64,000 nucleotides of DNA, taken from NCBI GenBank assembly GCA_029858565.1, contig JAOUEV010000011.1, positions 1 through 64,000 on the forward strand. The letters run 5' to 3'. The position numbers and the translations under genes were made by a program. The stretch's first letter is position 1; every line of letters begins with the position of its first letter. Below are positions 1,511 through 58,030 of the stretch, piece by piece. The notes below the pieces were generated by a model that was not told the DNA's origin, made no database searches, and was given only the letters and a program-made list of their open reading frames with translations. This stretch comes from Nitrospirota bacterium (GTDB taxonomy: Bacteria; Nitrospirota; UBA9217).

Positions 1511-1517
1511 AGTGCTC

Positions 1518-1578
1518 CTGGAACGGCTCGGCTGAGGGGCGCGGTTTTCGTGACCCTCTCGAGCCGAATGGTTAGAAC
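1518..1578 (-). repeat. attC-like imperfect palindrome (left of a possible single cassette)
   Basis: Read on the minus strand, it opens with TTCTAAC and ends with CGTTCCAG. Between them is an imperfect hairpin in which CGGCTCGAGAGGG faces CCCCTCAGCCGAGCCG around GTCACGAAAACCGCG. Size (61 bp), outer AAC/GTT elements and the mismatched hairpin resemble integron attC sites. A sister copy with the same central CGCGAAAACC-type core lies at 2206-2276, on the other side of one AT-rich gene. Confidence 0.4.
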
Positions 1579-1594
1579 GTGTCCGCACTGTTTT

Positions 1595-2200
1595 CTATCT
1601 AAAGAAATTGTCCCAAACAGAATATGCAATCAGGCAACAAGTGGCCAGCAAAAGAATAACAGCGATAGCTTTCAATGCGCGATCAGCCATGGATGATTCT
1701 GTCGGACGGATCAACATCGCGTATGACGTTCTTAGGCCTGGAGTACGATTCGTAATTTCTGCGATTAATTCGATTTGATATTTTGCACTACCTCTTCTTA
1801 TGAGATCAAATATTGTTGCGGCCTCCTGATCTGCCGGTTCAAGGCCAGAGCCAATAATAAAATTACCTTTATCGGTAAAAACCTTGTATCTCAAATTACC
1901 TTTTATCGGTGTAAGTGTTTTGATTTCTCGCACTTGACGCCACGTGGAAAATATCTTCTTTCTCCAACCATGAAACAATATCCCATCTTCAGTCACCTCA
2001 ATGTAGGTTCTCGCGAGGCTGTAATAGGCAGGAAATGGCAATGCAAAACATGCTGTGGATAGAAGAAGAAAAATTATCTTTCCTGTGAGTGAAGGTTCAA
2101 TAAATACGACTACTGTTCCTAGTCCACCCGTACCAAAACAAAGGCCAAATAGCAGGGAGCGATAATTCACGCCACTATGATAGTCGTATTTTTTCTTCAT
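1595..2200 (-). CDS. Hypothetical membrane protein with PH-like domain
   Basis: A 201-residue protein of unrecognised family. Hydrophobic segments lie near residues 14-35, 39-60 and 175-195. The middle region, about 60-135 (YIEVTEDGILFHGWRKKI, then FSTWRQVREIKTL and YKVFTDKGNFIIGSG), has the beta-strand layout and the W-x-V-x-x-I pattern of bacterial pleckstrin-homology-like membrane proteins (compare DUF304-type PH domains). That assignment is by pattern only. The DNA is clearly richer in A+T than its neighbours, and the gene sits between two attC-like hairpins (1518-1578 and 2206-2276), which suggests it arrived as a cassette. ATG at 2200. Confidence 0.65.
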   Translation of the reverse strand: MKKKYDYHSGVNYRSLLFGLCFGTGGLGTVVVFIEPSLTGKIIFLLLSTACFALPFPAYYSLARTYIEVTEDGILFHGWRKKIFSTWRQVREIKTLTPIKGNLRYKVFTDKGNFIIGSGLEPADQEAATIFDLIRRGSAKYQIELIAEITNRTPGLRTSYAMLIRPTESSMADRALKAIAVILLLATCCLIAYSVWDNFFR

Positions 2201-2205
2201 GCTCT

Positions 2206-2276
2206 ATTCTGAACTCCGGGGAGCTAGCGCGCGTGAGGAGCGTGGTTTTCGCGACTCACTCGGCGCTGGTTGGAAT
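2206..2276 (-). repeat. attC-like imperfect palindrome (right of a possible single cassette)
   Basis: Read on the minus strand it runs from ATTCCAAC to GTTCAGAAT and contains GAGTGAGTCGCGAAAACC followed by ACGCTCCTCAC. It shares the GTCRCGAAAACC core with the hairpin at 1518-1578. Its inner boundary sequence GTTCAGAAT loosely matches GTTAGAACG, the complement of the other site's outer end, as expected for the two ends of one cassette. Confidence 0.4.
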
Positions 2277-2335
2277 CTGTGGCCCTGCCTGTTAAAATAC
2301 ATTGAAACAATCCGCTGCTTTTGCTATTATCACTT

Positions 2336-2572
2336 ATGCCGACAGTGCTTGAGGATGGCCCCTATCGTTTCGTCTTTTTCAGTTCTGATAAAGGGGAGCC
2401 GCCTCATATTCACATAAAACGAGAACGCCTGATCGCCAAATTTTGGCTTGATCCGGTAGTACATGCAAAAAATCGGGGCTTTCAAGGACATGAGTTGAAC
2501 CACATTGCACGTCTTGTGGCAAAGCATGCACCGGCCCTTTTGGAGGCGTGGCATGAGTACTTTAGTGCTTGA
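2336..2572 (+). CDS. DUF4160 family protein
   Basis: A 78-residue protein starting MPTVLEDGPYRFVFFSSD. The sequence holds the DUF4160 hallmarks: RFVFFSSDKGEPPHIHIKR near the N-terminus, then KFWLDPVVHAKNRGF, and a helix ENHIARLVAKH-like ending in LLEAWHEYF. DUF4160 proteins are almost always encoded next to a DUF2442 gene, as here (20-bp overlap). The pair has been suggested to act as a toxin-antitoxin-like module, but no activity is established. The start at 2336 was chosen because the family begins with MPT(V/I) a few residues before the G-x-(Y/F)-R-(V/F) block. Confidence 0.8.
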   Translation: MPTVLEDGPYRFVFFSSDKGEPPHIHIKRERLIAKFWLDPVVHAKNRGFQGHELNHIARLVAKHAPALLEAWHEYFSA

Positions 2573-2855
2573 TGTAGAACCTATTGCCGTAGATGTGTCT
2601 GTGACGGATGATGACTTGACTGTACATCTTACCGATGGCCGTCGTATAAGTGTTCCTTTAGCCTGGTACCCTCGTCTGCTCAATGCTTCTCCGGAAGAGC
2701 GGATGCACTGGCAATTGTTAGGCGATGGCTACGCCATTGAATGGCCCGACATGGACGAACATATCGGCCTTGAGGGCTTATTGGCAGGGCGACCAAGCGG
2801 AGAGAATCCGCAATCTCTCAAACGGTGGCTCGATTCACGTCGCAGCAAGCAATAG
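2553..2855 (+). CDS. DUF2442 family protein
   Basis: A 100-residue protein from the ATG at 2553, which follows TTTGGAGGCG with good spacing. The VTDDDLTVHLTDGRRISVPLAWYPRL segment (about residues 17-42) is the DUF2442 signature, in which a strand pair leads into L-x-W-(Y/F)-P-R-L. The C-terminus GYAIEWPDMDEHIGLEGLLAG is also standard. It overlaps the DUF4160 gene by 20 bp and the pair is closed by a strong terminator at 2884-2918, so this is a complete two-gene transcription unit. Role unknown; a toxin-antitoxin-like pairing is a hypothesis only. Confidence 0.85.
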   Translation: MSTLVLDVEPIAVDVSVTDDDLTVHLTDGRRISVPLAWYPRLLNASPEERMHWQLLGDGYAIEWPDMDEHIGLEGLLAGRPSGENPQSLKRWLDSRRSKQ

Positions 2856-2883
2856 CGTCAAAGTATTGCGACAAAGTTGTGAA

Positions 2884-2918
2884 GAGGGGGCGCGTTTTTC
2901 AGCGCCCCCTCTTTTTTT
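2884..2918 (+). terminator. Rho-independent terminator of the DUF4160/DUF2442 pair
   Basis: A 10-bp perfect stem (GAGGGGGCGC / GCGCCCCCTC) with an 8-base loop is followed by seven T residues. It lies 29 bp after the DUF2442 stop codon. Confidence 0.9.
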
Positions 2919-2932
2919 CTCGTACAGCTTCT

Positions 2933-3149
2933 TTAATTAAAACTCACTGCAATGCCTGCGGCATCGTCATAATCATTCGGACCTTGCCCCTGTTGCCATA
3001 CTGCAAATAAGTCAGCCATGCCATTAAATACGGCACCATTGGTTAACTCCGCCTGTATGCTGGTCAACTTGTTATTGGTATCATAAACATTTTGCAGAGA
3101 CCCTGGTTTATGATATGAATAACTTCTTTGCTGCCATTGTAAAGGGTTT
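2933..3149 (-). pseudogene. C-terminal remnant of an unidentified protein
   Basis: On the minus strand an open stretch without any upstream start runs about 70 codons to a TAA at 2935-2933. Its last part reads like a genuine protein end: ELTNGAVFNGMADLFAVW, then QQGQGPNDYDDAAGIAVSFN. Upstream of that, the reading LYNGSKEVIHIINQG continues in a neighbouring frame, consistent with a frameshifted relic. The family is not recognised. The relic lies just beyond the stop of the SGNH hydrolase gene on the same strand. Confidence 0.4.
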
Positions 3150-49243: not shown

Positions 49244-50557
49244 TTATACCTTGATATTCAGCACCGGCAGCCCGAGCCGCTGCCGCTTGCTCTCCCCCTT
49301 GAACAATCCCGTCTTCCGAAGGGGCACGTCGCCCCGTTCCCCCTCGTGCTGCGCCTGGAGCTTTGTTGCCAGGCTCGCGGCATGCTGGATCGTGTGCTTG
49401 CCGAACTTCTTCGAGACCTCGTCGACCGCTGTGTAGACCCGGGACATCTTCTCGATCCGCGCCGTGTCCTCGAAGAGCGTGTACTGGATGCCGCTCTCGG
49501 GGACCAGGCCGCAGAGCACCACGCCGGTCTGGCGGTAGGGCGTCCGCGGCCTGAAGAGCCGCTGGAACCCGTCGCGCAGCAGGCCGAAGAGCTCTGCAGG
49601 ATAGGCCGTGGGCCGGGTCAACTTAAGTTCCACCCCGGAGCTTGTATAGTCCTGCTGGCGCAGAAAAACGATCAGTCGGGTAGCCGCGAGCCGGTACCGC
49701 CGCGCTTTGATGCAGGCGTTCTCCAGGTTCTTGGCGATCTGGGCAAAGACAAAGGCTTCGTCCATCGACGCCGGGGTGAAGGTCTTTGCCTTGCTGATGG
49801 ACTGGTACCGGTCCTTTGTTTCGACCGTGACCGGGTACACGCTCCTGCCGTTCAGCTCGTGCCAGATCTCGCGATAGGGTTTGGAAAGGTTCTGCTCCAC
49901 GAACCGCTCGTCCGCCCGCGCGAACTGGAGCGCGGTCCTGATGTTGTGCTTGTTCAGGAAGGCGGCGGTGTTCGGTCCGATGCCCCAGACCTTTTCCACA
50001 GGCAGGTCCCGGAGGAACAGGTGGATCTCCCTGCCGGGGATCATGGTGATGCCCGCGGGCTTTTTGTGCTTTGACCCGATCTTGGCCAGGACCTTTGAAA
50101 GGGAAACTCCCACGGACACGGTAATGCCCAGCTCCCGTTCGATGGTCTCCTGCATCTCCCTGGCGATCTCCTCGTAGGGACCGTGGAAACTCCTTCGGAG
50201 GCCGGTCAGGTCCACAAAGGCCTCGTCAATGGAGTACTCCTCCACGTCAGGCGAGAAGCGCCGCAGGATCTCGAACATGCGGACCGAAAAGAGGCTGTAG
50301 GTCTCGTAATCCGAAGGCAGGATCACCGCGTCAGGACAGAGCTTTTTCACGTCCGAAAGCCGCACACCGCGCTGCACGCCCTTGGCTTTTGCCTCGTAGC
50401 TTGCAGCCGCCACGATGCCGCGCTCCTTGCCCGTGATCACCGGCCTGCCCTTGAGCTCGGGATGGATGGCCTGCTCGCAGGATGCGAAGAAAGCGTCAGC
50501 GTCGAGATGCAGGATGGCGCGGGGCCAGGAGGAGAGGGAGAGGAATTGATCGTTCAT
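49244..50557 (-). CDS. Y-family DNA polymerase (DinB/UmuC type)
   Basis: A 437-residue translesion polymerase. The N-terminal LHLDADAFFASCEQ holds the first metal aspartate, YSIDEAFVDLTG the catalytic D-E pair, and GVSLSKVLAKIGSKHKKPAG and VWGIGPNTAAFL the rest of the palm and thumb. The C-terminal little-finger region is present, so the enzyme should be active. Start taken at M of MNDQF (50557); M at 50569 is an alternative. It is the distal member of a minus-strand DNA-damage-tolerance cluster that includes a pyrimidine-dimer glycosylase and a UmuD-like protein. A repeat element (50605-50773) separates it from the glycosylase gene. Whether it pairs functionally with the UmuD-like protein is inference. 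Confidence 0.88.
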   Translation of the reverse strand: MNDQFLSLSSWPRAILHLDADAFFASCEQAIHPELKGRPVITGKERGIVAAASYEAKAKGVQRGVRLSDVKKLCPDAVILPSDYETYSLFSVRMFEILRRFSPDVEEYSIDEAFVDLTGLRRSFHGPYEEIAREMQETIERELGITVSVGVSLSKVLAKIGSKHKKPAGITMIPGREIHLFLRDLPVEKVWGIGPNTAAFLNKHNIRTALQFARADERFVEQNLSKPYREIWHELNGRSVYPVTVETKDRYQSISKAKTFTPASMDEAFVFAQIAKNLENACIKARRYRLAATRLIVFLRQQDYTSSGVELKLTRPTAYPAELFGLLRDGFQRLFRPRTPYRQTGVVLCGLVPESGIQYTLFEDTARIEKMSRVYTAVDEVSKKFGKHTIQHAASLATKLQAQHEGERGDVPLRKTGLFKGESKRQRLGLPVLNIKV

Positions 50558-50604
50558 GTTCAGGCTCATTACGAAATAACAAAAAAAGACAACTGCCGAG
50601 TCTG

Positions 50605-50773
50605 TATCGCGCAAAGTCGCAAAGAACGGCGGAGGCGAATAGCAAATATCCGATTGTTTTGAAATATCAAGGGCCAGTTTCTATTCTGGAACTGCATGCA
50701 AAAAAAGGAAAATGGGTTCAGGAACTGACTGATCTCTCGATCTTTCTTTGCGTCTTAGCGGCTTTGCGCGAGA
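50605..50773. repeat. Inverted repeat element of about 170 bp
   Basis: The left arm TCGCGCAAAGTCGCAAAG (from 50605) and the right arm TTTGCGTCTTAGCGGCTTTG (ending 50773) are imperfect reverse complements enclosing about 110 bases with no gene. The arms match those around the GxxExxY gene at 57022-57486, so it looks like an empty version of that element. Confidence 0.65.
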
Positions 50774-50803
50774 AGAGAGGTGTTGGCTTGCTTGATCTTA
50801 TGG

Positions 50804-51232
50804 TCAGACCCGTTCCCACTCCTCGACCCCGCCGGGGACGATCCGGAACAGGGGATGGGGCCTTGGCCGGGCAAGCGCCTTGTGCAAGGCGTAGGTCTTC
50901 CTGTCCCGTGTCCGCAATTTCCCCAGCAGATGCTCCCATTCATGGTCTATCTGACCTTTCCGTATCTTCAACTTCCCGCATCGTCCGGCTTTTACGATCT
51001 TTGCGCCATTGAACCGGTACCCGCGTTGTTCAGCTTCCTTCAGCACTTCAGCCAGATAGCACCCGATGGCGCGGATGGGATCGCTGCATTCGCGGAAACG
51101 GTCCAACTGGGGGTGGGATCGATAGCCTTTTGTTCTGCCGAGCAGGACCTTCTGCGCAAGCAACCCTTCGCGCCACAGGGCCACGAGGCCTTTTGCGTCA
51201 AGATATTGCGGATGGATGGACCAAAGTCGCAT
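50804..51232 (-). CDS. Pyrimidine dimer DNA glycosylase (T4 endonuclease V-like family)
   Basis: A 142-residue protein that begins MRLWSIHPQYLDAKGLVALWREGLLAQKVL, the signature of bacterial Pyr_excise family proteins, and continues with KGYRSHPQLDRF, where the H-P-Q-L-x-R-F part is also conserved. These enzymes remove one base of a UV-induced pyrimidine dimer and cut the backbone. Its place beside a Y-family polymerase and UmuD-like gene fits a UV-damage role. ATG at 51232 after TGAGGCATCGTA. The region upstream (51233-51290) leads directly into the attC-like half site, so the cassette array begins right behind this gene. Confidence 0.82.
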   Translation of the reverse strand: MRLWSIHPQYLDAKGLVALWREGLLAQKVLLGRTKGYRSHPQLDRFRECSDPIRAIGCYLAEVLKEAEQRGYRFNGAKIVKAGRCGKLKIRKGQIDHEWEHLLGKLRTRDRKTYALHKALARPRPHPLFRIVPGGVEEWERV

Positions 51233-51290
51233 TACGATGCCTCAGGCTGTTTCAAAAGCGACAGCAAGGATTCTCTCGTGATCAGGAACC

Positions 51291-51352
51291 GGCGTTTGTA
51301 AACGCGCGAAGCGCCGCTTTTGCGAGTCGTTGTTGAGCACGTTGTTATGGGC
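51291..51352 (-). repeat. attC-like half site (end of array)
   Basis: Read on the minus strand: GCCCATAACAACGTGCTCAA, then CAACGACTCGC and GCGGCGCTTCGCGC. The left half is very attC-like; the right end (GCGTTTACAAACGCC) does not show a standard GTTRRRY core, so the site may be truncated. Confidence 0.5.
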
Positions 51353-51365
51353 ATCCATTGCGTGA

Positions 51366-51752
51366 CTAGCTCATGGCGACAAATGCGGCGCAAACAAGAA
51401 GAATTATGGAAATCGGCGCCCACAGCATTCGCTCTTTTTTGCTTGGCGTGATCGAATTCAGGACTGTGGCGACAAGACTGAATGCAACAACAAACCATAT
51501 CGCCGATCTCGAATATGTCGAATAATCGCTAATAATAATACCTGCGCGCGACAAAACGACGAGCGCCGCAAAAACAAGAACCACGATCTGAACCAGTGCG
51601 GCAATTCGCATTCGAGGAGGAAGCTGTCCGGGGAATTTACCACCCATTGTCATCGTTCCCCAGGGCGCACCTAGTGCGAGCGCGAACTGGAACAGAACCG
51701 CAAAAGCAGTCAGCACAGTGAAAAGGTATGCAGCAAAAGTTGGAGCATGCAT
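51366..51752 (-). CDS. Small four-helix membrane protein (cassette gene)
   Basis: A 128-residue membrane protein with four hydrophobic segments. The sequence LALGAPWGTMTMGGKFPGQL followed by PPRMRIAALVQIVVL, and the ending ITPSKKERMLWAPISIILL, mark a small membrane protein family repeatedly found in integron cassettes and other accessory DNA; its function is unknown. The ATG at 51752 follows the cassette boundary by a few bases (GCGTTGCAATCACCA), as usual for cassettes that lack their own long leader. It is bounded by attC-like sites at 51291-51352 and 51758-51815. Confidence 0.8.
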   Translation of the reverse strand: MHAPTFAAYLFTVLTAFAVLFQFALALGAPWGTMTMGGKFPGQLPPRMRIAALVQIVVLVFAALVVLSRAGIIISDYSTYSRSAIWFVVAFSLVATVLNSITPSKKERMLWAPISIILLVCAAFVAMS

Positions 51753-51757
51753 TGGTG

Positions 51758-51815
51758 ATTGCAACGCTGAGTTTACACGCCGCGTAGCGGTCGGCGTGGA
51801 ACGATAGGTTAGGAT
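51758..51815 (-). repeat. attC-like site
   Basis: Minus-strand reading runs ATCCTAAC ... CACGCCG ... CGGCGTG ... GCGTTGCAAT over 58 bp: outer AAC/GTT boxes and an inner stem with an unpaired centre. The TAA stop codon of the 871-residue gene lies inside its first box, a common arrangement in cassettes. Confidence 0.65.
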
Positions 51816-54424
51816 TTGTCATCCTGCTCTTTTGTAATTTTCTCTTCCAACTTATGCTCTTCTATTATCTGCTTAGCCTCGCGTTCATAGGACTCAGATA
51901 GTTCGCGTAAAACAGTAGCAAATCTTGCAAAGCCTGCATCCTCCACAGCTTTGGCTTTGTTTAGCCATTCTGCAGCTAATTCATATTCAGGTTTCCCAGT
52001 GGGATCAACCCAATGAACACCTCTTGAGTTATAAACTTCTGTGCGAAATCCCCTTCGCATATCTTCAGCATCTCTTGCATTTAAGACTCTGGCAACCGCC
52101 CGATTGATCCACAATCCATCAGGATCGGCAGGGCAATTCAGTAAGACACCACCAACGTGGATCATGGCTACTGCAAGATGGCCAGATTCCTTGCATTGCT
52201 TTTTAACAATAGCAAACCACGATTCAAATTCTTCAACAGAATAACTGCCATTGTCTTGTAAGCCTGGTGGCCGACGCCACTCGTGTAAAAGTCGCCATGC
52301 ATTACTAGCAATAGCCGCTCTTTTCTCATCGACTTCCTCAACCTGTTGATCTTCATTCTTAGATCGATAGATAAGGCGAATGACCTCAACAAAAAACTCT
52401 GGCTTCGTAGCGAGGCGTTTTTCAAGCAACTTCGGCTCAGCACCATCAGGTCTTGTAAGCAACGGCAAGTAAGCCCATTCCACTTTGAAAAGATCATCAT
52501 CCTGGACCTGCGGATCATTTTGCAGGGCCTTTATAAGCTCCGTAATATTATATGTATCCATCGTCTGCCCAGACTCTTGCACGGAAACTGCGCTTAGCAG
52601 CGCTCTTACGGTTCTTGCGCTATCCAGTGGCATCTTGTTAAATAACCGCGAATGCAGGCAGCCGATTGCTGACTGTGGCCGTGAAACTTCAAGTAATTTG
52701 TCGATTGCATATAATGGGTCGCTTTCAGTTTGGTAAGGATTGACATGTACCTTTTGCCAGTACGTCTGTTCATGTGTTCCTAGCCACTGGGTAGCTCGCA
52801 CCCACGTGTCAGTCTCGAAAGGTAAATAAACAAGGAAGAGACAATTTTGCGCCAACGACCAGCTTGACCTATCGATTGCGTCAACCCACGCCCAGCCTTG
52901 CGCATGAAAACGGCTTAAAATGAAACTGGCAATGAATTGCCTATATTTGATATTTTCATTATCTAAATATTGGGGAAGTAACCCGATATCAATTTCTTTT
53001 TTATCGATTAAACCCAACGCCCAACCGACTTGGTTTGGCGATTCAACTGTCGCAGCAAACTTAAGAATACCCTGAAGTCCGCTGGCGTCGAATAACGAAC
53101 GAACCGCTTGATAGCGCTTATCGCCGAGTTTCCTGCGCTGCTCTTCCCAATTGCCTCGCTCGTCATAGAGATCAAAATCTCGTTTACTGAAAAGTCTCTG
53201 ATGCTGGCCGTCAAGACTTTGCGGAGCCAGTTTGTTTGCAGTTGCCTCAATTTGATCTACCTTGTCAGGACTGAGCGCCCACTTTGCATCAGCAAATTTG
53301 CGGTGTTTCTGTACAAAATCCATTAGACCAATCCAAATCGGTAAGCGCTGATCTTCCGAAAGTTCGGCGACCGCTGCCGATGCTAAATGCTCTAATAGTG
53401 CATCAAATGATGGTTTTGGTAAATTATCAATATTGCTGACAAGCTCTTTAAGTCTATCCAAATTATCGCGAGCCATTTCGATGGCAAATTCCGCATATAC
53501 AGTCACCTGATCCCAATATTCTTGATTTGTAACTTTTGGTTGCCAGTCTTCGGGAATCGTGATATGCCAACGTGGTTTATAGGCGCCACTAGACGTCTGA
53601 TGCTGATTTGGCAGAAAATCGATAACGACTTTCCATGCCACACCTGGGAAGTCTTCTTTAATCGCTTTGATTGAAGAAATGCGCGTTTCAATACGCGCCA
53701 AGGTCTGTGGGTACCACGGCAACAATATCTGTACTATCGAATTGGATGGACGATTCGCCCATCTACCCCCAGGATCATGTGATGCGAGTTCCGCTAAAAT
53801 GACGATTGATCTTGTTAAGAATTTATCACTCCAGGACAGGCTTTCTAACGCCCACAGCAAGCCAGTCATATAGTTTTTGCCACTAATGCCCTTACCTTCC
53901 TGCGCAAATAAATTATCAAAAGGGCATGGCGTTTGTTGTAATGCCGCCTCGACTTGACTTAGGAATTCATCTGGAGCGGCTTCGGCCACGGTTGGCAATA
54001 AATCATTAATGCTAGCCCATAGTTTCCAATCCGCTTGATTGAAAATGTCGCGAATAGTCATAACGGCAGTCGATTCTGCCTTATATCGTGAGACATTTGT
54101 TAATTTATCGCCATAGTTCCCAAGAAGCGCCAAGGTTTCAGCCATTCCCTTACGTAGGCCTAACGAGTATTTGAGTATCTTCCCCTGCATGCTTGCAACA
54201 TAACGCTCCTCGGCAGGCAGCTCAAATTGTGGATCCAATTCTTTAAGTACCTCGACAGCGCACTCTTTGAATTTGTCTAGATGAGCATCAAATACTCTAG
54301 AACCAAATGATTCAAAGAGCATTTTGCGATCTGATACCGCCCAATGGCCGTTTCTAAGCGACAATGGATTGCCCTCTTCTTGGAGGACTTCGCGTAGATC
54401 ACCTATCCAAGTTTTATAATCCAT
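51809..54424 (-). CDS. Large helical-repeat protein, predicted sensor part of a nuclease-linked defence pair
   Basis: An 871-residue cytosolic protein of mostly helical, repeat-like composition, rich in W and L. Stretches such as AEERYVASMQGKILKYSLGL, RKGMAETLALLGN, TGLLWALESLSW and ASHDPGGRWANRPSNSI are the kind of conserved C-terminal region I associate with large nuclease-NTPase proteins of genomic islands (Avs-like). That link is by memory of pattern, not by search. No Walker A motif is visible. Its ATG overlaps the stop of the upstream nuclease-like gene by 11 bp and has AAGAGG before it, so both are translated together. The junction reads as if one longer protein had been split. It forms one 3.8-kb cassette with its partner. 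Confidence 0.7.
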   Translation of the reverse strand: MDYKTWIGDLREVLQEEGNPLSLRNGHWAVSDRKMLFESFGSRVFDAHLDKFKECAVEVLKELDPQFELPAEERYVASMQGKILKYSLGLRKGMAETLALLGNYGDKLTNVSRYKAESTAVMTIRDIFNQADWKLWASINDLLPTVAEAAPDEFLSQVEAALQQTPCPFDNLFAQEGKGISGKNYMTGLLWALESLSWSDKFLTRSIVILAELASHDPGGRWANRPSNSIVQILLPWYPQTLARIETRISSIKAIKEDFPGVAWKVVIDFLPNQHQTSSGAYKPRWHITIPEDWQPKVTNQEYWDQVTVYAEFAIEMARDNLDRLKELVSNIDNLPKPSFDALLEHLASAAVAELSEDQRLPIWIGLMDFVQKHRKFADAKWALSPDKVDQIEATANKLAPQSLDGQHQRLFSKRDFDLYDERGNWEEQRRKLGDKRYQAVRSLFDASGLQGILKFAATVESPNQVGWALGLIDKKEIDIGLLPQYLDNENIKYRQFIASFILSRFHAQGWAWVDAIDRSSWSLAQNCLFLVYLPFETDTWVRATQWLGTHEQTYWQKVHVNPYQTESDPLYAIDKLLEVSRPQSAIGCLHSRLFNKMPLDSARTVRALLSAVSVQESGQTMDTYNITELIKALQNDPQVQDDDLFKVEWAYLPLLTRPDGAEPKLLEKRLATKPEFFVEVIRLIYRSKNEDQQVEEVDEKRAAIASNAWRLLHEWRRPPGLQDNGSYSVEEFESWFAIVKKQCKESGHLAVAMIHVGGVLLNCPADPDGLWINRAVARVLNARDAEDMRRGFRTEVYNSRGVHWVDPTGKPEYELAAEWLNKAKAVEDAGFARFATVLRELSESYEREAKQIIEEHKLEEKITKEQDDKS

Positions 54425-55436
54425 CGATCAGCCTCTTTATAACATCTAAATCGGATTCATTGCTTTCATCCCACTGACCGACGAGAGCGGCTATGGCCAA
54501 AGCAAGTGGGCTAACTTGTGCGGTCAAGCTGCTTGTTGAGCGTGGCACATCTGGTTTTACATACTCTGCCGGAATGCTTGCAGCCGGCCTTTGTTTGAAA
54601 GCGTCTCTTAAATCTTGAGGAAGCTTTTCAAGCGTTACAGTTCCTGCATCCTGATTCCAAGTCTCGACAATATCAACGACCCTCGACCAGGCCCACTGTG
54701 GGTAACTCGAGTTAAATTGAGAAATATGAGAGTGAAGCAACGATAAGACTACTCCTACTTCTTTGCCTAGATCGTATCCTAGCAAATAGAATCTATTTAA
54801 AAAGATATATAGCACTTCATCAGCAACTTTCTTGTTGCCATTTGCACCTTTCAGATGATGCCGAAATACATCGAGTTTCTCTTTTGCTTTTGATGGGCTA
54901 AATCTTGTCTGGTTAACATTTCTGAAAAATTCAGCACTATCTTTGGTGTGACGTGCTTGATCAAGCAACCACACTACGTTATGAGCATCTGTTTCATTTA
55001 AAGGACCTGTAATTAGCGCTATGGCGTCTTTACGCTTGTCAAATAGCACGGTGTTATTAAAATCGCTCCATGCTGCATACATGACTTCAGCAAGAACAGT
55101 ATTGCCCTTGGTAAAACCAATGGAGTGCTTGATCTGCCCAAGGAGTTTGCATTCCTCTCTTGTGTTGCCATTTCGCACATAAACGACAAGATCATCTGTA
55201 TCAAAGCCGTCTATTTTTCCTTGAAGCTTTACTTGTCTTATCGGCCAACATGGCAGAGCGGGGGCGTATCCGCCGGTTAGCATTAGCGCAACAAAGGAAG
55301 CTTGAACGTGAGCTTCAAAATGAAATCCAACACCCCCCGTCGAGCGTGGATTGCTCAGCAGCTTTTTTGCTTTTGAGCTTACTCCACTCTTCATGCGTCG
55401 ACGCTTTCTAGTTTTAGAAGCAGATTTTCTTTTCAA
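54414..55436 (-). CDS. PDDEXK-like nuclease domain protein (Cap4/Avs-like effector)
   Basis: A 340-residue protein with a very basic N-terminus (KRKSASKTRKRRRMK). Residues 34-105 look like a PDDEXK nuclease core: E41 in FHFEAHVQ, D81-D82 in GFDTDDLVVYV and the Q101-I-K103 of LLGQIKHS, the order E...D...QxK found in Cap4-type DNA nucleases. The rest is helical and ends LALAIAALVGQWDESNESDL, which in fused relatives would run on into the following protein. No P-loop is seen. Start: a TTG at 55436 preceded by GCGGGGAA; the ATG at 55394 is an alternative. The probable role is DNA cleavage on sensing an invader together with the 871-residue partner (inference). Confidence 0.68.
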   Translation of the reverse strand: MKRKSASKTRKRRRMKSGVSSKAKKLLSNPRSTGGVGFHFEAHVQASFVALMLTGGYAPALPCWPIRQVKLQGKIDGFDTDDLVVYVRNGNTREECKLLGQIKHSIGFTKGNTVLAEVMYAAWSDFNNTVLFDKRKDAIALITGPLNETDAHNVVWLLDQARHTKDSAEFFRNVNQTRFSPSKAKEKLDVFRHHLKGANGNKKVADEVLYIFLNRFYLLGYDLGKEVGVVLSLLHSHISQFNSSYPQWAWSRVVDIVETWNQDAGTVTLEKLPQDLRDAFKQRPAASIPAEYVKPDVPRSTSSLTAQVSPLALAIAALVGQWDESNESDLDVIKRLIDGL

Positions 55437-55549
55437 GTATTCCCCGCAATAAATTATTAAAATATCCGACCGCGTCAGTCATTCTTGCTAAGCTTGAATA
55501 TTCAGACCTGGAATCAAAGAGCACAATGACCAGGTGCTTCTAAGTCGGG

Positions 55550-55608
55550 ATACTAACGCGCGCGTCACACGCCGCAAGGCGTGTCGTTGTGGACGCGCAG
55601 GTTATGAT
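55550..55608 (-). repeat. attC-like site (best-formed)
   Basis: Exactly 59 bp. On the minus strand: ATCATAAC, GCGCGTC, a 7-base bulge, ACACGCC, loop TTGC, GGCGTGT, GACGCGC, then GCGTTAGTAT. Two stems with an asymmetric bulge and AAC/GTT outer boxes are the defining shape of integron attC sites. Confidence 0.75.
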
Positions 55609-55611
55609 ATC

Positions 55612-55983
55612 TCATTCCACAATTTGAAGTTCTGTCGCGGTCCAAATACCTTTTGGCCGAACTAGACGTTTCAGCTTGATAATGTAGTTCTTGGTTTCTG
55701 AACACTGTACTACAGCTTCATTGGCAGACTCAGATGACAATTTGCACTTCTCGAAAGGGACCTTGGCTTTAATTGTAGAAATAAGATCCGCGTGAGCGAC
55801 GTCAACTGGTTCTAATCTCCAGGGTTGATGCCCGTTATCAACTTCTGTCTGTAACCGCTTTTCTTTTTCTATGTCAACTGGTAATGCAATCTTTTCAGTT
55901 TTCTGAACGGGCTGGCAATTCGCCTGATATGTATTTGCGAAGACAAGGAGAAGGAAAGTAAGAAACATTGGAAAACTTATCAT
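55612..55983 (-). CDS. Hypothetical exported protein (cassette gene)
   Basis: A 123-residue protein with an N-terminal signal peptide (MISFPMFLTFLLLVFANTYQANC), probably cleaved near residue 23, and a soluble domain with two cysteines (C80, C93) that could form a disulfide in the periplasm. No family is recognised. The stop codon lies three bases before the well-formed attC-like site at 55550-55608. The DNA is A+T rich, unlike the flanking repair genes. The start is only 31 bp from the stop of the preceding cassette gene, with a truncated attC-like sequence between. Confidence 0.65.
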   Translation of the reverse strand: MISFPMFLTFLLLVFANTYQANCQPVQKTEKIALPVDIEKEKRLQTEVDNGHQPWRLEPVDVAHADLISTIKAKVPFEKCKLSSESANEAVVQCSETKNYIIKLKRLVRPKGIWTATELQIVE

Positions 55984-55995
55984 TTTGACCTCATT

Positions 55996-56021
55996 GTCGG
56001 TGTGGAACGAATCGTTATACC
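55996..56021 (-). repeat. Truncated attC-like site
   Basis: Minus-strand reading GGTATAACGATTCGTTCC then ACACCGAC gives a left attC half; the right half is missing, which has fused two neighbouring cassettes. GGTATAAC is an exact complement of GTTATACC at the start of its own cassette (56415-56422). Confidence 0.55.
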
Positions 56022-56404
56022 TTCGACTTTGTTTTAAAAAAGGAAGTAATTCTCTTTATAATTCCGACGCTTGGTTTGAAACCAAAATGTTCAAGAATTA
56101 GATTGGATGTAATTTCCTTATCTTCTTCAATATCTTTTACAATTATTTTGGCAAATCGAGGCCAATCAGCTTGAGATATCCCCTTGTAGTAGCGCCATTC
56201 GTGATTTCTCGCATCTTGCCAGCAATCCCAGAAGTTTAATGCGAGGAAAAGCTTCTTGAACTCTGGTCCGCTATTCCGGGGAAGGTTCTGATCAAATTTA
56301 TCGAACCCCTCTCCGACCTTTTTAAAGTCACCACGACTGTGGCTTTCTATATCGTGCGATAGACTCTCAATTAAATATTTCTTAGCCTCACTATAAGTAA
56401 ACAC
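56015..56404 (-). CDS. Hypothetical protein (cassette gene)
   Basis: A 129-residue protein with a GTG start (56404), placed 10 bases inside the cassette boundary. The centre FLALNFWDCWQDARNHEWRY and YKGISQADWPRFAKIIVKDI is rich in tryptophan and helical, a pattern I have seen in other uncharacterised cassette or island proteins, but no family name can be given. The basic C-terminus (KRITSFFKTKSKV) ends at the truncated attC-like site. It is the first gene of the array in the direction of transcription. Confidence 0.6.
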   Translation of the reverse strand: MFTYSEAKKYLIESLSHDIESHSRGDFKKVGEGFDKFDQNLPRNSGPEFKKLFLALNFWDCWQDARNHEWRYYKGISQADWPRFAKIIVKDIEEDKEITSNLILEHFGFKPSVGIIKRITSFFKTKSKV

Positions 56405-56414
56405 TTTTGCCTCG

Positions 56415-56454
56415 GGTATAACAAGGTGTTGACGGGACGGAACCCGTTATATAC
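56415..56454 (-). repeat. Cassette-array boundary, attC/attI-like
   Basis: Minus-strand reading begins GTATATAAC and ends GTTATACC, an inverted pair around about 23 bases including GGGTTCCGTCCCG. It marks the upstream end of the array and is too short for a full attC; it could be a shortened attC or an attI-like insertion point. Confidence 0.5.
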
Positions 56455-56466
56455 ATATATATGAAC

Positions 56467-56574
56467 TTATCTACCGGTATATAATTTTATCTATCTGTAG
56501 ATAAGAGGCGTTCATCTACCGGTAGATGATTTCTCGGATATCCGCATTTCTAAGGTTCATCTACCTGTATATAA
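56467..56574. repeat. Four 18-bp palindromic repeats
   Basis: Copies at 56467-56484, 56487-56504, 56512-56529 and 56557-56574 share the pattern T(T/C)ATCTACCGGTAGAT(A/G)A. The third, TCATCTACCGGTAGATGA, is a perfect palindrome. The fourth overlaps the 3' end of the 115-residue gene. Start-to-start spacings are 20, 25 and 45 bp. They lie between that gene and the first cassette and could be binding sites for a dimeric DNA-binding protein. Confidence 0.8.
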
Positions 56575-56897
56575 CTTTCCAGGGGCGTGCCAACGATCTT
56601 GCCGTATTTCGCGAGCCAGAGCCTCTTCTCCGGGTCCCATCGTCCGCCAGCTGTTTTTGCCTGCGCCCGGGCTGGCAGGTCGGAAACTTCGATGCGCAAG
56701 GGGACAAGGGTGTCCGGGGTATAGCGCCGGGGCGGCGGGGTCCAGTTGGTCCGCTCGACGACCAGCTCGACCGTTTTGAGCCGCTGCCGCGACTGCTCGT
56801 CATATTTGAACCGGATGCAGACCAGGGCATCGCCGTACTTTTCCGCAAGGCCTTTGGTGCCGGGCTGTCCCGGCCTGAGGATCAGGCGTGTTCTCAT
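56550..56897 (-). CDS. Hypothetical protein of the UmuD/polymerase neighbourhood
   Basis: A 115-residue basic protein starting MRTRLILRPGQPGTKGLAEK, with ALVCIRFKYDEQSRQRLKTV and ELVVERTNWTPP in the middle and a KTAGGRWDPEKRLWLAKYG block near the end. I recognise the start as a small conserved protein often encoded near LexA/UmuD-like or polymerase genes or mobile elements, with no known function; the GGRWDPEKRLW block may bind nucleic acid (inference). Start at 56897 after GGGAGAGCGGA. It lies in the same direction as the UmuD-like gene upstream and the polymerase downstream, so it was probably part of one operon before the cassette array and the GxxExxY element were inserted. Confidence 0.72.
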   Translation of the reverse strand: MRTRLILRPGQPGTKGLAEKYGDALVCIRFKYDEQSRQRLKTVELVVERTNWTPPPRRYTPDTLVPLRIEVSDLPARAQAKTAGGRWDPEKRLWLAKYGKIVGTPLESYIQVDEP

Positions 56898-57021
56898 TCC
56901 GCTCTCCCTGCGACCGGTTGCGGAACTACGGCTAGAGTAGCATTGATCAGGAAATTCCGCAAGCCGGAAGTTGTCATTTCTTGCATGTAAAGAAACGAAC
57001 GGCAAAAGCAAAGCAACGGCG

Positions 57022-57051
57022 TCTCTCGCAAAGCCGCCAAGCCGCAAAGGG
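57022..57051 (+). repeat. Left arm of inverted repeat around second GxxExxY gene
   Basis: Contains TCTCGCAAAGCCGCCAAG followed by CCGCAAAGG. Inverted relative to the copy at 57454-57486. Confidence 0.7.
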
Positions 57052-57067
57052 ATAAGAACGTCAAAGG

Positions 57068-57445
57068 CTACAGCCGGTTGACTACCCGTTCGATCCCATC
57101 CTTGATAAGGCTGACGTTAAAATTAACCAACATGGCGAGTTTCAAACCAGTCAACTTCAAATAGGTCGTGACCTGCTTTTTGTGAACAGGCTGAACTTTC
57201 TCCACGGATTTCAACTCAACGATAACCAAATCATTCACGATCAGATCTGCACGAAAGCCAAGGTCCAGTTTCACTTCTTCATACTGCACCGCTACCTCGA
57301 CCTCTTTCGCGCACTTCAGGCCTGCTTTGTTCAATTCATAAATGAGAATTTCAAGATAGACCGATTCCAAAAGACCTGGTCCGAGCTTTTTATGAATTCT
57401 GTAACAACAATCGACAATGATCTTCGATAACTGATTTTCGTCCAC
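57068..57445 (-). CDS. GxxExxY protein (PDDEXK_3-like)
   Basis: A 125-residue protein with all family marks: GPGLLESVY (the GxxExxY motif), YEEVKLDLGFRADLIVNDLVIVELKSVEKV (nuclease-like core D...ELK) and QVTTYLKLTGLKLAMLVNF. It has a normal ATG start (MDENQLSKII). Function unknown; the fold relates to restriction-type nucleases. It is flanked by inverted CGCAAAGCCGC-type repeats at 57022-57051 and 57454-57486, and lies between the UmuD-like gene and the 115-residue gene, as if inserted as a unit of about 465 bp. It is a paralogue of the gene at 9684-10109. Confidence 0.85.
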   Translation of the reverse strand: MDENQLSKIIVDCCYRIHKKLGPGLLESVYLEILIYELNKAGLKCAKEVEVAVQYEEVKLDLGFRADLIVNDLVIVELKSVEKVQPVHKKQVTTYLKLTGLKLAMLVNFNVSLIKDGIERVVNRL

Positions 57446-57453
57446 GGTTCCCG

Positions 57454-57486
57454 CCTTTCTTTGCGGCTTAGCGGCTTAGCGCGAGA
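57454..57486 (-). repeat. Right arm of inverted repeat around second GxxExxY gene
   Basis: Its reverse complement contains TCTCGCGCTAAGCCGCTAAG followed by CCGCAAAG, matching the left arm at 57022-57051 at most positions. Confidence 0.7.
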
Positions 57487-57520
57487 AAAATGCATTTGTT
57501 GTTCTGCATTGATGATGATG

Positions 57521-57994
57521 CTATTTGTACTTCCTCACCACCGCCGTCACCACTCCGGCTACTTTCAGCTCCTGCTTCGGCCGGATGGGCGGGTACTTGG
57601 GGTTCGCGGCAACGAGGGTGACGGTGTCCCCGCGCTTGCGGAGGTATTTCATGGTCCATTCGCCGTCCACCTGGGCGATGACGATGTCGCCGCTCTTTGC
57701 CTGGAGGCTCCGGTCGATCAGGACCATGTCACCGGGCATGATCCCCGCGCCGGTCATGGAATCGCCTGACACGTTCAGCAGGAAGGTGGCCTCGCGGTTC
57801 TGGATCAGCAGATCGTCGAGCGACAGGGTGTCGACCAGTTCCTCCTCGGCAGGAGAGGGGAAGCCGGCCTCGACCCGGCCCAGGACCGTGACCTTGCCGC
57901 GGTCCCGTTGATCAGCGAACCTCGCCAGAAACGTGAACGCGGCGCTCTTGTTCGGGAGTCCGGTCGCCTTGCTTGTTGTTATCGCGGTAATCAT
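57521..57994 (-). CDS. UmuD/LexA-like autoproteolytic SOS protein
   Basis: A 157-residue S24-family protein of UmuD type, without a DNA-binding domain. The self-cleavage site is A43-G44 in RVEAGFPSPAEE, the nucleophile is S79 in SGDSMTGAGI and the general base is K116 in EWTMKYL. After RecA-stimulated cleavage it would act as a partner of a translesion polymerase, presumably the Y-family enzyme at 49244-50557. The start at 57994 is set by the promoter: the -10 box ends at 58002, so the expected transcript start falls at or within a base or two of this ATG and the mRNA would be leaderless. An earlier ATG at 58003 overlaps the -10 box and cannot be used. Confidence 0.9.
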   Translation of the reverse strand: MITAITTSKATGLPNKSAAFTFLARFADQRDRGKVTVLGRVEAGFPSPAEEELVDTLSLDDLLIQNREATFLLNVSGDSMTGAGIMPGDMVLIDRSLQAKSGDIVIAQVDGEWTMKYLRKRGDTVTLVAANPKYPPIRPKQELKVAGVVTAVVRKYK

Positions 57995-58001
57995 GGCATC
58001 C

Positions 58002-58030
58002 ATTATAGGTGAACAAGTGTTCACCGTCAA
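58002..58030 (-). promoter_or_regulatory. SOS-type promoter of the UmuD-like gene
   Basis: On the minus strand TTGACG (58030-58025) and TATAAT (58007-58002) are spaced by 17 bp. The spacer is filled by the palindrome described at 58008-58025, so a bound repressor would block RNA polymerase. Confidence 0.85.
58008..58025 (-). promoter_or_regulatory. LexA-type operator
   Basis: GGTGAACACTTGTTCACC has perfect 8-bp inverted arms and contains GAAC-N4-GTTC, the core of the LexA box of Gram-positive bacteria and some other phyla. It lies between the -35 and -10 of the UmuD-like gene. No lexA gene is in the window. Confidence 0.8.

Follow-up and report, generated by a model that had tools for sequence, protein, structure and literature searches.

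In an uncultured Nitrospirota family, the interval from a LexA/UmuD-like gene to the gene for a DinB-like polymerase probably holds an integron platform followed by about four gene cassettes and no local integrase, the cassettes having been inserted as circles at a docking site (attI) by an integron integrase. The window analysed here is a stretch of 64,000 nucleotides on contig C142 of a draft genome of 3.9 Mb (G000). Within it the interval with its two bounding genes spans 49244-58030, all genes being on the minus strand, and from the LexA/UmuD-like side the order is a GxxExxY gene, a gene for a 115-residue protein (the platform gene), palindromic repeats, five open reading frames (ORFs) of 129, 123, 340, 871 and 132 residues, a pyrimidine-dimer glycosylase gene and the DinB-like gene. 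A first-pass annotation had described five same-strand, AT-rich genes here as an integron-like cassette array without an integrase in a repair cluster. The five minus-strand ORFs do have a GC content of 43-46%, against mostly 54-62% in the flanks, and an independent model finds two strong attC recombination sites among them; there is no integrase gene (intI) at the locus, and a whole-genome profile search places both intI genes on other contigs. The parts of the platform and array are:

56550-56897, minus strand: platform gene, 115-residue protein with a DUF5710-like C-terminal part, kept beside intI in other genomes
56440-56577, minus strand: palindromic repeats (iterons) from the platform gene to the docking site, for example CATCTACCGGTAGATG; three 23-nt copies 45 nt apart
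56415-56437, minus strand: attI-like docking site with its crossover GTT at 56422, from its first-ranked matrix score and its offset from the platform gene
56015-56404, minus strand: cassette 1 gene, an ORF of 129 residues, with 8/8 end boxes
55991-56021, minus strand: half attC of cassette 1, the R''-L'' half only; 22 nt match the 51758-51814 attC in its left half at 82% identity
55612-55983, minus strand: cassette 2 gene, an ORF of 123 residues with an apparent signal peptide
55550-55607, minus strand: attC of cassette 2, 47.7 bits, expectation value (E) 3e-10; bottom-strand fold z = -3.3
54414-55436, minus strand: first ORF of cassette 3, 340 residues, 63% identical to the N-terminal part of a 1180-residue ORF in genome G087
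51809-54424, minus strand: second ORF of cassette 3, 871 residues, 53% identical to the rest of that G087 ORF
51758-51814, minus strand: attC of cassette 3, 36.2 bits, E 4e-7; own-cassette end boxes 7/8
51366-51764, minus strand: cassette 4 gene, an ORF of 132 residues, apparent membrane protein
51296-51347, minus strand: probable decayed attC at the array end, 11.3 bits, E 0.22 with filters off

The attC sites were sought with a covariance model built from 12 aligned attC sites outside the window, drawn from intI-bearing or cassette loci, namely loci of the same genome and four loci of relatives; it took the place of a hand-written scanner that was too insensitive and unspecific. The alignment has the classical attC architecture: the R boxes pair, there is a central stem, and unpaired bases lie on one side; 10 of 16 base pairs show two-sided changes. 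Over the whole window the model has four matches up to E 10: 55550-55607 and 51758-51814, which are two of the five attC-like boundaries that the first-pass annotation had proposed, and 1517-1577 and 2221-2275, which lie in a second array. The annotated site at 55550-55608 is about 58-59 nt long and its bottom strand folds in the manner of an attC, with the asymmetric bulge that had been described; the site at 51758-51814, which shares 93% identity over 43 bp with an attC that G006 has at its dinB locus, folds no better than shuffled sequences on its bottom strand (z = -1.2). As for the other three proposed boundaries, the one at the array end is weak or decayed, that at 56014 is half an attC, and that at 56415-56422 is attI-like; neither 56014 nor 56415 gives a match as a full attC site, even with filters off. 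The right half of the attC is missing from cassette 1, which is therefore fused to cassette 2.

In a control on 118 genomes of the phylum at E 1e-4, attC sites were found in all 14 genomes of the family, while 89 of the 104 Nitrospirota genomes outside it have none and the other 15 have 1-4. That the locus is an ordinary operon with chance palindromes and no integron at all, as might be read from the single orientation of the genes and from the lack of any cassette gene in a known family, is an idea to which we give next to no credence: it is refuted by the E values of the two strong attC sites, the only other matches in the window being those of the second array, and by the different genes that occupy the same place in relatives. 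Chance palindromes are thus ruled out by the model matches together with the phylum-wide control.

The array has a head as well as attC sites. For attI we used a matrix trained on 38-41 sites, none of them from the window, with a training minimum of 14.4 and a median of 25.4 bits. The GTT at 56422 ranks first of about 128,000 positions in the window at 15.5-16.0 bits, and the runner-up reaches 8.0. In relatives, palindromic repeats follow 3' of the 115-residue gene and are succeeded by the motif AATAACTNGTTRR, and the attI-like site of the window lies at about the same distance from that gene; this top rank and matching offset indicate that the 56415-56422 box, as read from sequence and position, is the junction between attI and the first cassette. 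The iteron region has 4 palindromes versus 0.65 in shuffles, and in most of 27 loci the repeats between the platform gene and attI are more numerous than in shuffled sequence. Their half-site varies by clade, a clade-wise agreement that could come from linkage alone.

The ends of the cassettes tell of how they arrived. Insertion of a circular cassette leaves complementary boxes at its own start and its own end. For cassette 1 the start box GTTATACC (56415-56422) and the end box GGTATAAC (56014-56021) are complementary at 8/8 positions, and for cassette 3 the boxes at 55550-55557 and 51808-51815 are so at 7/8, just as the first-pass annotation had it; two of the four window cassettes have this property. 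The same holds beyond the window, where the own-start and own-end boxes of 22 further family cassettes are complementary at 50 of 88 variable positions versus a permuted mean of 28.7, a count reached by 0 of 20,000 permutations.

Integrases that might act on this platform are encoded elsewhere in the genome, where the first-pass annotation had suggested looking for them. Two intact integron integrase genes, on contigs C128 and C137, exceed the TIGR02249 cut-off. The C128 integrase aligns over 304 residues, catalytic motifs included, to the solved integron integrase 2a3v; about 165 residues at its N-terminus are additional. Its locus has the complete layout, with intI, a divergent homologue of the platform gene (55% identical to the window protein), repeats, attI and cassettes with attC. 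The C128 array stops at the contig end, where the sequence (L010 6088-6215) begins like an attC and then diverges, possibly an intron or insertion sequence (IS) inserted in an attC. In all, the genome has about 40 attC sites on about 20 contigs (C18-C143, L088-L103), mostly 1-3 per locus, and G006, G007 and G009 have a similar dispersal. The notion that all of these dispersed arrays start at an attI was rejected, most of them having no attI-like head, and for the one dispersed locus compared with the sister species no alignable region was found.

With most attC contigs headless in this way, arrays that are off-target or fragmentary may be frequent in the genome, and one could suppose that in the window, too, there is no true platform and an integrase encoded elsewhere put the cassettes into a secondary site. 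We regard this as improbable: it is disfavoured already by the attI ranking, and attI, iterons and platform gene stand in the right order and spacing in the window as well as in G003, G007 and G011.

A comparison across the family bears on whether the platform has been in use. Arrays with attC but no intI lie in the interval between the lexA-like gene and dinB, or beside dinB or the platform gene where contigs break, in 9 of the 14 family genomes; the sister species G001 has the interval with neither array nor 115-residue gene, and the other four genomes could not be judged or have no lexA-dinB linkage. The cassettes at the locus are almost entirely different among relatives, the dinB-proximal one being common only within a genus (75% identity between G006 and G009; identical over a short overlap in G011 and G013), which is what growth at the attI end would produce. 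The first-pass annotation had held that a lack of attC matches together with the same genes in fixed order among relatives would speak against it, and what was found is the reverse on both counts. A search of the gap between the lexA-like and platform genes, in the window and in five relatives, found neither intI nor a remnant of it, and attI stays strong at these loci lacking intI.

A rival account is that the locus is a fossil, its local intI, once between the lexA-like and platform genes, having been lost before the family radiated or repeatedly, with the array only decaying since. We do not favour it, but it has a real chance of being right: the order lexA, intI, platform gene, array exists at five Desulfuromonadales loci (L105, L120, L121, L122 and L158), the window has a half attC and a weak attC, and no intI was found in G007 or G008. 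It is at odds with the difference in cassettes between species of one genus (G006 and G009 share the last one alone), with the conservation of attI and platform gene where intI is missing, and with the absence of an intI remnant from every gap examined.

Cassette insertion by an integron integrase at a platform lacking its own intI is our preferred reading, and the turnover of cassettes within a genus where the locus has no intI speaks for service in trans, at least in the past. The locus is probably served from elsewhere or was orphaned long ago. Cassette circles would be inserted at attI by an integron integrase, and because no intI remnant is found where attI and the platform gene are kept, that integrase would have worked, at least partly, from other loci in trans; any current recombination activity is putative. 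The array in the window has partly decayed, with a half attC fusing cassettes 1 and 2 and an imperfect attI, so that this copy may now be slow or frozen.

Several points weigh against this reading. No recombination was observed, and with the lexA-intI-platform gene-array order existing in cis in Desulfuromonadales, the layout is accounted for just as well if a local intI was lost. Among the 14 family drafts, five (G001, which has a 72-residue fragment, G004, G005, G007 and G008) show no intI or a fragment alone, leaving a source in trans unproven for these attC-bearing genomes; G007 is 97% complete and has 33 attC sites, and no intI was found in it. Finally, the role of the platform protein is a prediction, and a fold search with its AlphaFold model found no relative of solved structure.

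In a scan of one genome per species, with 80 loci kept, relatives of the platform gene were found in Nitrospirota, Geobacteraceae/Desulfuromonadales, Rokubacteria, Desulfobacteria and others. At 33 of the 80 loci, from several phyla, intI lies directly upstream, in 31 of the 33 cases divergently; some of the remaining loci are cut by contig ends. The five Desulfuromonadales loci named above have a full LexA gene beyond intI, the layout of the window with intI added. Where intI is missing, the platform gene has a ratio of nonsynonymous to synonymous substitution rates (dN/dS) of about 0.09-0.17 among close copies, which is purifying selection; for the window copy against close lexA-linked copies it is 0.12-0.16. 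All 10 platform protein members examined match PF18974 (DUF5710) weakly, the window protein missing the gathering score at 20.7 bits versus a cut-off of 26.5. The AlphaFold model is locally confident (predicted local distance difference test 90.6, predicted template modelling score 0.51), and its best viral fold matches are DUF5710 proteins (E 0.08-0.15). We infer that the platform protein would bind the palindromic repeats beside attI and assist or regulate cassette recombination or expression. No description of the gene was found in the literature searched, in which coverage of subscription journals was poor. Truncated or stop-bearing copies followed by repeats also occur on contigs C121, C108 and C41 (L085, L086 and L087), with attC sites behind those on C41 and C108 and an attI-like site behind that on C121; these loci are probably decayed platforms.

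None of the five array ORFs has a match in Pfam, NCBIfam or PADLOC. The same cassette was looked for at other loci, as the first-pass annotation had advised, and for cassette 3 this succeeded: in G087, from another family of the phylum, the 1180-residue ORF is homologous to both cassette 3 ORFs and has an attC within 8 nt of its stop codon (27.6 bits, E 1.7e-4), so that it is the same cassette at another locus. The two ORFs of the window, which overlap by 11 nt (54414-54424), correspond to a single ORF in relatives; the second is read in another frame, from a start codon of its own at the junction. This second ORF is 44% identical to a Shewanella plasmid protein whose gene neighbours Abi and superinfection-exclusion genes. 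On a conjugative plasmid of Shewanella baltica a 1187-residue homologue adjoins an Abi gene and a superinfection-exclusion gene, neighbours which suggest a possible defence function for cassette 3; a search against the known anti-phage systems of PADLOC found no match up to E 1.

The array is flanked by the following genes:

57521-58030, minus strand: LexA/UmuD-like S24 peptidase gene, upstream flank, 169 residues; PF00717 E 1e-30, the NCBIfam UmuD subfamily above cut-off, lexA 113 bits
57068-57445, minus strand: GxxExxY / PDDEXK_3 gene (TIGR04256, PF13366), inside 28-nt inverted repeats
50804-51232, minus strand: pyrimidine dimer DNA glycosylase gene, downstream flank; PF03013 E 1.7e-22
49244-50614, minus strand: DinB/Pol IV-like Y-family polymerase gene, downstream flank; PF00817 E 2.6e-49

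Pfam and NCBIfam profiles recognised no N-terminal DNA-binding part in the 169-residue protein; G011 has a full-length LexA-like ORF at the equivalent position. The GxxExxY gene occupies the spot held by intI in the Desulfuromonadales versions of the layout. It lies between inverted copies of the 28-nt repeat TCTCTCGCAAAGCCGCCAAGCCGCAAAG (57022-57049 and 57459-57486), of which a third copy lies near dinB (50746-50773) and which also occurs in G007. The second array of the window (1517-3080) has its two attC sites around a 201-residue ORF; its attI core is weak (CAATAACAAGTTGACC, GTT at 3068, 4.9 bits), and the upstream repeat half-sites are of the C41 type. On contig C26 (L011, 61-3226) an IS91-like transposase and a tyrosine recombinase adjoin an attC, and in G013 (L079, 4897-5706) a recombinase similar to the latter adjoins an attI; such an element could mobilise cassettes.

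Among known systems, the locus resembles a cluster of attC sites lacking integron-integrases (CALIN), as the first-pass annotation had called it, in its two bona fide attC sites, which on the scores of the model built here reach the two-attC threshold of IntegronFinder 2.0 (PMC9024848), its same-strand cassettes and the absence of intI nearby. That much of the label stands; the attI-like site in place of a supposed attC boundary, the conserved platform gene and repeats, and the one fixed locus across the family make it more than a bare CALIN. With a complete integron it shares a putative attI, to judge from sequence and position, attC-bounded cassettes with own-end complementarity and variable content at a fixed locus, and it differs in having no intI adjacent to the array. 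It is like the sedentary chromosomal integrons of Vibrio and Xanthomonas in being chromosomal and attI-headed, with attC sites related within the lineage and a lexA-like gene adjoining; unlike them it has no integrase in cis, a short array, an extra gene between the intI position and attI, and many dispersed attC loci in the same genome. LexA is, according to a review, the only conserved host factor, and it regulates known integrases (PMC8946536). The integrons of Geobacter and other Desulfuromonadales with long integrases (about 460-480 residues) have the same platform gene, repeats and attI-like motif, and in five loci a lexA-like gene beside intI, but they have intI in cis. In Pseudomonas, an error-prone polymerase operon likewise serves as a site for integron-like elements, which are reported to insert into rulB itself (PMC4542609), whereas the array in the window lies between the lexA/umuD-like gene and dinB.

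The first-pass annotation was right that integrons are little described in this lineage, the IntegronFinder 2.0 survey having reported two CALIN in the phylum (PMC9024848). Our results extend cassette arrays to a family with almost nothing in such surveys, attC sites being present in every one of its genomes examined, and the locus indicates a second conserved integron gene besides intI, one that has repeat sites of its own beside attI. More tentatively, and with doubts of our own, we suggest that in Nitrospirota, Geobacterales and allied groups a dedicated attI-side gene encodes a protein that binds palindromic iterons and cooperates with the integrase, and that platforms can run with no local integrase when served in trans, as a split, two-locus integron. 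The locus also provides a natural setting for testing whether an array at an attI can be kept up by an integrase acting in trans, a question relevant to how CALIN are proposed to arise, for which a review names off-target insertion and loss of intI (PMC8618304).

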